Source of the DNA: Candidatus Tectimicrobiota bacterium
GTDB lineage: Bacteria > JACPSX01
NCBI GenBank assembly: GCA_016193065.1
Contig: JACPSX010000201.1
Span: 1-13,725, forward strand
Length of the DNA: 13,725 nt
Direction of reading: 5' to 3'
Position numbers and translations under genes: made by a program. Each line of letters starts with the position of its first letter. Position 1 is the stretch's first letter. The notes beneath the pieces were generated by a model, which made no database searches, was not told where the DNA came from, and was given only the letters and a program-made list of their open reading frames with translations. This document shows positions 1 through 1,262 of the stretch, piece by piece.

Positions 1-1
1 A

Positions 2-350
2 GATCGCCTGCGGGGGCAACCCCTCGGAGGAGAGAGTACCAAGGGGACTGTCCTTCCTGCCCTGAGCGCAACTGCCGGGAGCAGCGGCACCCAGAGGGTA
101 CCCGACCGGGAGCGGCCAGGGATGGGAAACCGCGCAGCCTAAACTCGCTTGCAGATAGATGAAAGTCTATCGTGGCGGTAGCGGAGGGATCCCACCCTGG
201 CCGCCCCGCTGCGGGACACCCGCAAGGCGGGTACCCGGAGCGAAGGGCAGGAAGACAGTCCCTTTGCCAGGGATTCGCCAAAAGTGGGGATGGGTAAGGG
301 TATCTTGTTCCTTTGCCCGTACGGCCCTAGTGCACTCTCCGCCGGTGATC
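2..350 (+). ncRNA. Candidate large structured RNA, family unknown
   Basis: No convincing gene lies here, but the plus strand folds into nested helices. The ends pair (2-8 with 344-350, then 26-34 with 335-343 with one A-G mismatch) around a small hairpin (13-16/20-23, CAA loop). A long helix pairs 40-51 with 255-266 and 53-62 with 245-254, leaving only C52 bulged. Inside it are a hairpin (73-77/85-89), a 9-bp helix (96-104/228-236) closing a junction, an 18-bp helix with two bulged A's (108-127/190-207), helix 129-133/175-179, hairpin 154-160/165-171 with a GAAA loop, and hairpin 210-215/219-224. Another hairpin is 292-300/310-318. Five G-T pairs (6/346, 43/263, 160/165, 295/315, 298/312) would be C-A mismatches on the other strand, so transcription from the plus strand is inferred. 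I see no RNase P, tmRNA, 6S or cobalamin-riboswitch core motifs. A fold-back DNA repeat is the main alternative. Confidence 0.45.
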
Positions 351-363
351 CGTGAAAAGGATC
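347..363 (+). repeat. Perfect 5-bp hairpin competing with the RNA closing helix
   Basis: GATCC (347-351) and GGATC (359-363) are perfect inverted repeats around a 7-nt A-rich loop. Bases 347-350 are also needed for the terminal helix with 2-8, so the two pairings exclude each other. The right arm abuts the TTGACA box at 364. There is no T-run, so it is not an ordinary intrinsic terminator. It may be a DNA operator instead. Confidence 0.35.
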
Positions 364-431: not shown

Positions 432-1262
432 ATGACTTCCGCAAAGCTGGTCGGTTCCGCCAACAAGGCCCTCGCCATCCTGACCTCCTTCACCCTGGAC
501 AAGTTGGAGCGTGGGGTCAGTGAACTGAGCCGGGAACTCGGCCTCCACAAGGCGACGGTGCATCATATCCTGAAAGATTTGGAGCGCTGGGCTTTCGTGC
601 AGAAGGATGAAAAGACGCAAAAGTACCGTCTCGGAATGCGGCTCTTGGAGCTGGGAGATCTCGTCCGCAGGAATTCGGATCTCATCCAGAACAGCCAGCC
701 CTTTTTGGATGGGCTCAGCAGGAAGACCGGGGGGACCGTCACTCTGAGGATTCTGGAGAAGGATAGCCTCCTGGTGCTCGCCAAGGCGGAGAGCGTTCAC
801 AATCTGAAAATTACCTACGATGTGGGCTCCCGCCTTCCCTGCAACTTCGGCGCCTCGGGGAAGCTGCTCCTGGCTTTTCTTCCGGTAGGGGAATTCCGGA
901 GGCTGGCCCGGATGGGAAAGATCAGGAGGTTGACCCCCCGCACTGTGGTCAATCCCCGGGAGCTTGAGCAGGAGTTCGAAAGAATCCGCCGCCGCGGCTA
1001 CGCCTTCAGCAGCGAGCAGGCCATCAGCGGGGCGCGGGGGGTGGCGGCTCCCATACGGGACCGGCTGGGCAACGTGGTGGCGGCTCTGGGGTTCAGCATG
1101 CCGGTGAGCCTCCTCCCGCAGAATAAAGTTCCGGAAATTACCCGAGAAGTTCTGGAAACCGCCGCCGCAATCTCCGCCCGTTTGGGCTACCCGCCCCAGC
1201 TCAATGAAGAGCGGATGGATAAAGGAGCAAGGGATGACGGCCGAAGAGCCGCGGCGCGTTAA
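432..1262 (+). CDS. IclR-family transcriptional regulator
   Basis: A 276-aa helix-turn-helix regulator of the IclR family, which typically senses small organic acids or aromatic intermediates and controls catabolic operons. An N-terminal winged HTH (about residues 8-70) contains SELSRELGLHKATVHHILKDL. The IclR effector domain (about 80-255) has the family signature around LPCNFGASGKLLLAF (135-149) and a C-terminal AISGARGVAAPIRD segment. The frame is open back to 159, but residues before 432 look non-coding and overlap the structured element. The ATG at 432 lies downstream of the promoter at 364-393, has an AAGGA 10 nt upstream, and gives the usual family length. It is unusual in being the first gene of the cluster on the same strand, where many IclR genes are divergent. 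The likely targets are the Mo enzyme and amidohydrolase genes, but the ligand cannot be told. Confidence 0.9.
   Translation: MTSAKLVGSANKALAILTSFTLDKLERGVSELSRELGLHKATVHHILKDLERWAFVQKDEKTQKYRLGMRLLELGDLVRRNSDLIQNSQPFLDGLSRKTGGTVTLRILEKDSLLVLAKAESVHNLKITYDVGSRLPCNFGASGKLLLAFLPVGEFRRLARMGKIRRLTPRTVVNPRELEQEFERIRRRGYAFSSEQAISGARGVAAPIRDRLGNVVAALGFSMPVSLLPQNKVPEITREVLETAAAISARLGYPPQLNEERMDKGARDDGRRAAAR

Follow-up and report, generated by a model that had tools for sequence, protein, structure and literature searches.

A probable family of non-autonomous, promoter-upstream-targeting transposable elements with an elaborate folded interior in a Candidatus Tectimicrobiota genome

Features of the locus

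The window (the whole 13,725-nt stretch analysed, contig JACPSX010000201.1 of a Candidatus Tectimicrobiota bacterium) begins with a 5'-truncated copy of a dispersed, non-coding element that is bounded by inverted repeats; the 3' part of that copy occupies positions 1-298 of the plus strand. The first downstream gene, which is not part of the element, encodes an IclR-family regulator (432-1262, plus strand; PF01614, PF09339), and the genes further downstream encode ThiS/MoaD-like, molybdopterin oxidoreductase, 4Fe-4S, NMT1-like and amidohydrolase proteins. The promoter of this operon is predicted on the plus strand at 364-393, between the element end at 298 and the iclR start at 432. It consists of TTGACA (364-369) and TATTAT (388-393) separated by 18 nt, with 11 of 12 matches, and lies outside and downstream of the element.

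The window was compared by blastn with its own assembly (2.9 Mb in 294 contigs, 86% complete), which yielded 65 matching places; apart from the window copy itself, the best of these reach 82-85% identity across most of its length, and complete copies that have the two terminal repeats lie elsewhere. Because the window begins at a contig end, its copy is cut at the 5' side, where about 150 bp fall past the contig edge. The end of another contig, C190, has 87 bp identical to window positions 1-87 and carries TTGACA 13 nt from its 5' repeat; on these two grounds, C190 is probably the continuation of the window copy. A matching target duplication between the C190 flank and the window flank was looked for and none was found, so the join is not confirmed. 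Two copies may have recombined, or the true join may be another one.

Several parts can be distinguished in the window copy, all given here for the plus strand. Positions 1-30 are the 3' arm of a 5' hairpin module, A5, as judged from a module match and the A5 consensus fold; the 5' arm is missing here. An outer core helix, supported by the fold and by covarying pairs, is formed by 40-62 and 245-266 and encloses a structured core (63-244), which was defined by alignment, conservation and a covariance model with 32 genome copies. Within the core, an inner helix pairs 107-127 with 190-208, leaving A111 and A122 bulged; it is supported by the fold and by compensatory changes, among them C-G to G-C and A-U to G-C changes in copies L024 and L025. 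An apical, GAAA-capped hairpin lies at 154-171. It is followed at 211-240 by a small palindromic insert of the ACCCGCAAGGCGGGTACCCG type, recognized from matches restricted to the insert on contigs C241, C257 and C53. The 3' terminal inverted repeat, AAAGTGGGGATGGGTAAG, is at 281-298 and has three mismatches to the family consensus.

The initial annotation had described a 22-bp helix with one bulge and an 18-bp helix with two bulged A's, and both are present as the outer and inner helices. The GAAA-capped hairpin that it listed is likewise present, but belongs to the window copy, as the sequence of the apex varies between copies. It had also placed the structure at 2-350, with ends that pair with each other, boundaries that were not confirmed. 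That pairing seems to have used 2-8 with 343-349, yet the right end of the element is at 281-298, so these pairs join the element to non-element DNA. At the other side, positions 1-30 belong to a hairpin whose other arm lies off the contig.

Folding and covariation

The plus strand of window positions 1-360 had a predicted folding energy of -201.2 kcal/mol, as compared to -153.2 ± 6.6 kcal/mol for dinucleotide-shuffled sequences (z = -7.3; 0 of 100 shuffles). A real fold, as the initial annotation had proposed, is thus present. The minus strand was likewise far below its shuffles (z = -5.7).

The pairing also covaried across copies within the same genome. In a consensus structure across 21 copies, 96.2% of cells were paired, and this value fell to 42-54% when the structure was slid by 1-3 columns. 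Double changes were found at 9 pairs, compared with 4.7 ± 1.1 in shuffles, and the covariation score exceeded that of all 500 shuffles, evidence that is strong but not absolute because the shuffles ignore relatedness among copies. Compensatory changes were also present at 8 of the 25 pairs in the consensus fold of 27 A5 copies.

No Rfam 15 family matched the window (plus strand at E 10), a complete copy, a copy with the B5 hairpin or a copy with the alternative core (both described below), either at the gathering threshold or at E 10. A group I or group II intron or a HEARO-like RNA was considered and rejected, having no Rfam support. Like the ornate RNAs GOLLD, ROOL and OLE, as these are outlined in PMC12286853, the element has a large multi-branched structure; unlike them, it is mobile, multi-copy and bounded by inverted repeats, and it matches neither their families nor any other in Rfam. 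The suggestion of a new structured RNA thus holds as to the ordered, covarying fold that matches no Rfam family. It does not hold as to a single RNA gene, as the window carries one of 32 core-bearing copies.

The element family in the genome

A covariance-model search (E <= 1e-4) located these 32 core copies; the genome also has many partial ones. Complete copies (L002, L003, L005, L010 and L017) are about 400-452 bp long and are bounded by symmetric 18-bp terminal inverted repeats, CTTGCCCACCCCCAGTTT and its reverse complement. On both strands together, 44 sites in the genome were within three mismatches of CCTTGCCCACCCCCAGTTT, as compared to 3 for the reversed control. No ORF spanning the complete copies was seen, as judged from gene calls and module maps.

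The interior has a modular build. It consists of A5, the hairpin at the 5' side, which in some copies has a further hairpin, B5, in its apex, and of the core, which has two alternative apical domains. In six copies, the apical domain of the core is replaced by another conserved domain of about 75 nt (GAGGCCCGCGCCGGATGAAAGCCGGAACTGACCGCAGGGAATTCCGG...) on the same scaffold; it is found at L060:21-96 and L062:69-143, and on contigs C279, C241, C57 and C182. Such a combination of a covarying, conserved core with interchangeable hairpin modules is unusual for an element of this kind. Small palindromes are inserted at several points within the elements, where the ACCCGCAAGGCGGGTACCCG type and a second type, CACACCCAGGATGGGTACCC, are each repeated at several places. 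Isolated matches to the small palindrome were also seen elsewhere (contigs C241, C257 and C53), as if it were an independent mini-repeat. In L072, L081, L083, L087 and others, the A5 module is joined to an inverted B5 module, and from these composites, element ends appear to have been shuffled between copies.

Homologues were found neither in 40 other genomes, a set that contained no other genome of the phylum, nor in viral contigs. When genome contigs were searched with the conserved-core pattern, only two single matches were obtained, in an Oscillospiraceae MAG and a Hyphomicrobiaceae MAG, and both were taken for chance.

Among known dispersed repeats, pneumococcal BOX elements are modular boxA/boxB/boxC repeats. 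To the extent that they are described in PMC3049150, they resemble the present family in being modular, structured, dispersed intergenic repeats; the elements studied here differ in being larger and more nested, and in inserting upstream of promoters with target duplications.

Insertion sites and promoter spacing

Flanking 10-bp direct repeats with at least 8 of 10 matches were present in 6 of 29 candidate repeat pairs, while random pairing of flanks gave a fraction of 0.0025. The duplications were perfect in L005 (ATTTCTCGGT) and L015 (CGATCCGTCC), matched at 9 of 10 positions in L002, L010 and L081, and at 8 of 10 in L017. The length of the target duplication is 9-10 bp.

The distance to nearby promoters was fixed. 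TTGAC, pointing away from the element, started exactly 13 nt outside the repeat at 16 of 53 well-matched ends (Poisson P = 3e-32); 3 further ends had it at 12 nt, and no other position had more than 1. A TAnnnT box was found at positions 35-37 outward at 17 ends, with 1.2 expected (P = 3e-14), and the sigma70 -35 box at an element end usually has a -10 box 17 bp further on. Weaker -35 boxes (TTGCCA, TTGATT, TTGATC, TTGCCG) accompany good -10 boxes (TATAAT, TATCTT, TAGGTT, TAATTT), which suggests that the insertion target is the promoter as a whole and not the -35 hexamer alone. Both orientations occur: a hand count gave about 10 copies with the 5' end nearest the promoter and about 12 with the 3' end there. 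In the window copy, there is no -35 box at 13 nt from the 3' end (the promoter lies at a distance of 65 nt), and the 5' end is off the contig.

These positions bear on the proposal of the initial annotation that the structure might be a large leader sensing something relevant to the Mo-enzyme cluster. In its general form, this explanation would make the family a very large, riboswitch-like cis-regulatory leader RNA copied before many operons, a role that would fit a structured, covarying core running toward the downstream gene start in 24 of 32 cases (hand count; P = 0.0035). However, the frequency is little lower for the 5' side, which has a gene start ahead of it in 14 of 23 cases (Fisher P = 0.38), either element end can be promoter-proximal, and the terminal repeats and target duplications indicate insertion. 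A leader or riboswitch would be located within the transcript that it regulates. The predicted promoter positions, in the window and at promoter-proximal ends, instead place the elements upstream of the promoter; in the window, the element lies upstream of the iclR promoter (364-393) and is therefore outside the transcript of that promoter. Furthermore, the same core stands upstream of unrelated genes, accompanied by inverted repeats, target duplications and the fixed promoter spacing, and no link between the element and the downstream Mo-cluster genes is visible. The leader hypothesis was rejected on the position of the promoter, and we regard it as highly improbable. The first reading of positions 2-350 as a new structured element was right in substance, while a leader or sensor function was not supported.

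Classification and proposed mechanism

Overall, this is a family of non-autonomous, promoter-upstream-targeting transposable elements with an unusually elaborate, constrained interior, and very probably one of DNA transposons (MITEs) that insert upstream of promoters by means of a trans-acting transposase. Like bacterial MITEs, the elements are short, non-coding and intergenic, are present in many copies, and have inverted repeats and target duplications. Unlike them, they keep a fixed distance to promoters and have a conserved, covarying, modular interior, and no parent IS sharing the element ends was found in the 86% complete assembly.

The insertion habit matches that of the Mutator-type transposons ISLre2 and ISKra4 (PMC3942029), and for this reason we read the family as a non-autonomous element of that class. 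According to Guerillot et al. 2014 (PMC3942029), insertions of TnGBS/ISLre2 (p-MULT 3) and ISKra4-group elements lie 13-17 bp upstream of the -35 box of sigmaA promoters, elements with symmetric, near-perfect repeats insert in both orientations, and the published target duplications are 8-9 bp long. The present elements share with ISKra4 (p-MULT 4) and ISLre2/TnGBS (p-MULT 3) repeats of at least 18 bp, near-perfect symmetry, both orientations, the -35 spacing and a short duplication. Specifically, the -35 box lies at 13 nt at 16 of 53 ends and at 12 nt at 3, as compared to 13-17 bp in the p-MULT group; the repeats at both ends of complete copies are 18 bp, as compared to 18-39 bp; and the two orientations are represented by about 10 and about 12 copies. 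In contrast to ISKra4 and ISLre2 elements, they are only about 100-460 bp in size, have a large, conserved, folded interior and a duplication of 9-10 instead of 8-9 bp, and carry no transposase gene, no ORF having been found in complete copies. We therefore do not class the family as an IS of the p-MULT group, but as a non-autonomous element with the behaviour of that group.

A transposase acting in trans, probably a promoter-targeting Mutator-like enzyme (ISLre2/ISKra4, p-MULT 3/4) judging from these likenesses, would recognise the symmetric 18-bp repeats. Insertion would take place just upstream of a sigma70 -35 box, with 9-10 bp duplicated and the -35 hexamer about 3 bp beyond the duplication. 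The promoter would remain intact after insertion, so that insertion would do little harm. Targeting may proceed via promoter-bound RNA polymerase or the DNA to which it binds; by analogy with Ty3, Guerillot et al. proposed that the transposase contacts the transcription machinery (PMC3942029).

A transposase gene with matching ends (CTTGCCCACC...) was not found in the 86% complete assembly, and a PF00872 transposase was absent from it. Two candidate partners were rejected. The only UPF0236 match, an ISKra4-like protein on contig C242, is encoded by the one ISKra4-like IS of this genome, whose ends (GGGTGTGCGAC...) are unrelated to those of the element, and a DDE_Tnp_1_4 protein does not share the element repeats. 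In the ISKra4-like IS itself (L100, contig C242:1500-6500; L099), the ends, GGGTGTGCGACAAATTTGTGG, are near-perfect and the flanks show what looks like a 9-bp duplication, CAGCCATCT; its neighbour is a second transposase gene (PF13701, DDE_Tnp_1_4).

Promoter-targeted bacterial transposition is already known for a few transposase-encoding elements. The family described here is a high-copy, non-coding one with the same habit, and its dozens of natural insertions, all within a single genome, give a precise target rule: 13 nt from the element end, and about 3 bp from the duplication to the -35 box. Its covarying, domain-swapping interior also raises the testable question of why a gene-less transposon maintains an elaborate fold.

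Function of the interior

Between copies, identity is 91-95% in the central blocks of the core, as compared to 55-75% in the outer arms, apex and tails of these copies. All parts of one element are equally old, and we infer from this that constraint has acted on the core in those lineages from which new copies arise. Selection thus appears to keep the interior in copies that seed new insertions, and would most likely do so by helping the element to propagate.

The initial annotation had seen five G-T pairs that make sense only on the plus strand. An excess of plus-strand G-U pairs was at first apparent across copies as well, but it was inflated by plus-strand folding and was largely gone when the count was restricted to pairs shared by the two strand predictions: the ratios of plus-strand G-U to A-C pairs (G-U on the minus strand) were 17:9 in the core, 3:5 in A5 and 0:1 in B5. 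The minus strand, as noted above, likewise folds well below its shuffles. The core leans to plus-strand RNA, a strand preference that is weak and not decisive.

It is possible that a functional RNA is encoded within the mobile element. That the interior specifies a trans-acting non-coding RNA, involved in transposition or RNA polymerase targeting or adopted by the host, is a refinement of the transposon reading that we consider unlikely. It would account for the conservation and covariation of the core, for the exchange of whole helical domains as modules, and for the better folding of the core alignment as the plus strand (-74 versus -60 kcal/mol for the minus strand), but no promoter or transcript was identified for the core, no homologous RNA is known, and the wobble pairs favour the plus strand only weakly. 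More speculatively, a transposon-encoded structured RNA with exchangeable domains might aid transposition or steer insertion to promoter-bound RNA polymerase. This idea is decidedly improbable; if true, the element would be an RNA-assisted, promoter-targeted DNA transposon.

A second refinement of the transposon reading, tentative and also rather unlikely, is that pairing matters at the DNA level only, through cruciforms, single-strand hairpins or the binding of dimeric proteins. The long asymmetric internal loops of invariant sequence in the core are typical of RNA and, together with the lean of the core to the plus strand, argue against it. Consistent with a role at the DNA level, nested imperfect palindromes occur throughout the element, including small ones that seem to be repeats themselves, both strands fold far below shuffles, and the A5 alignment folds better as the minus strand.
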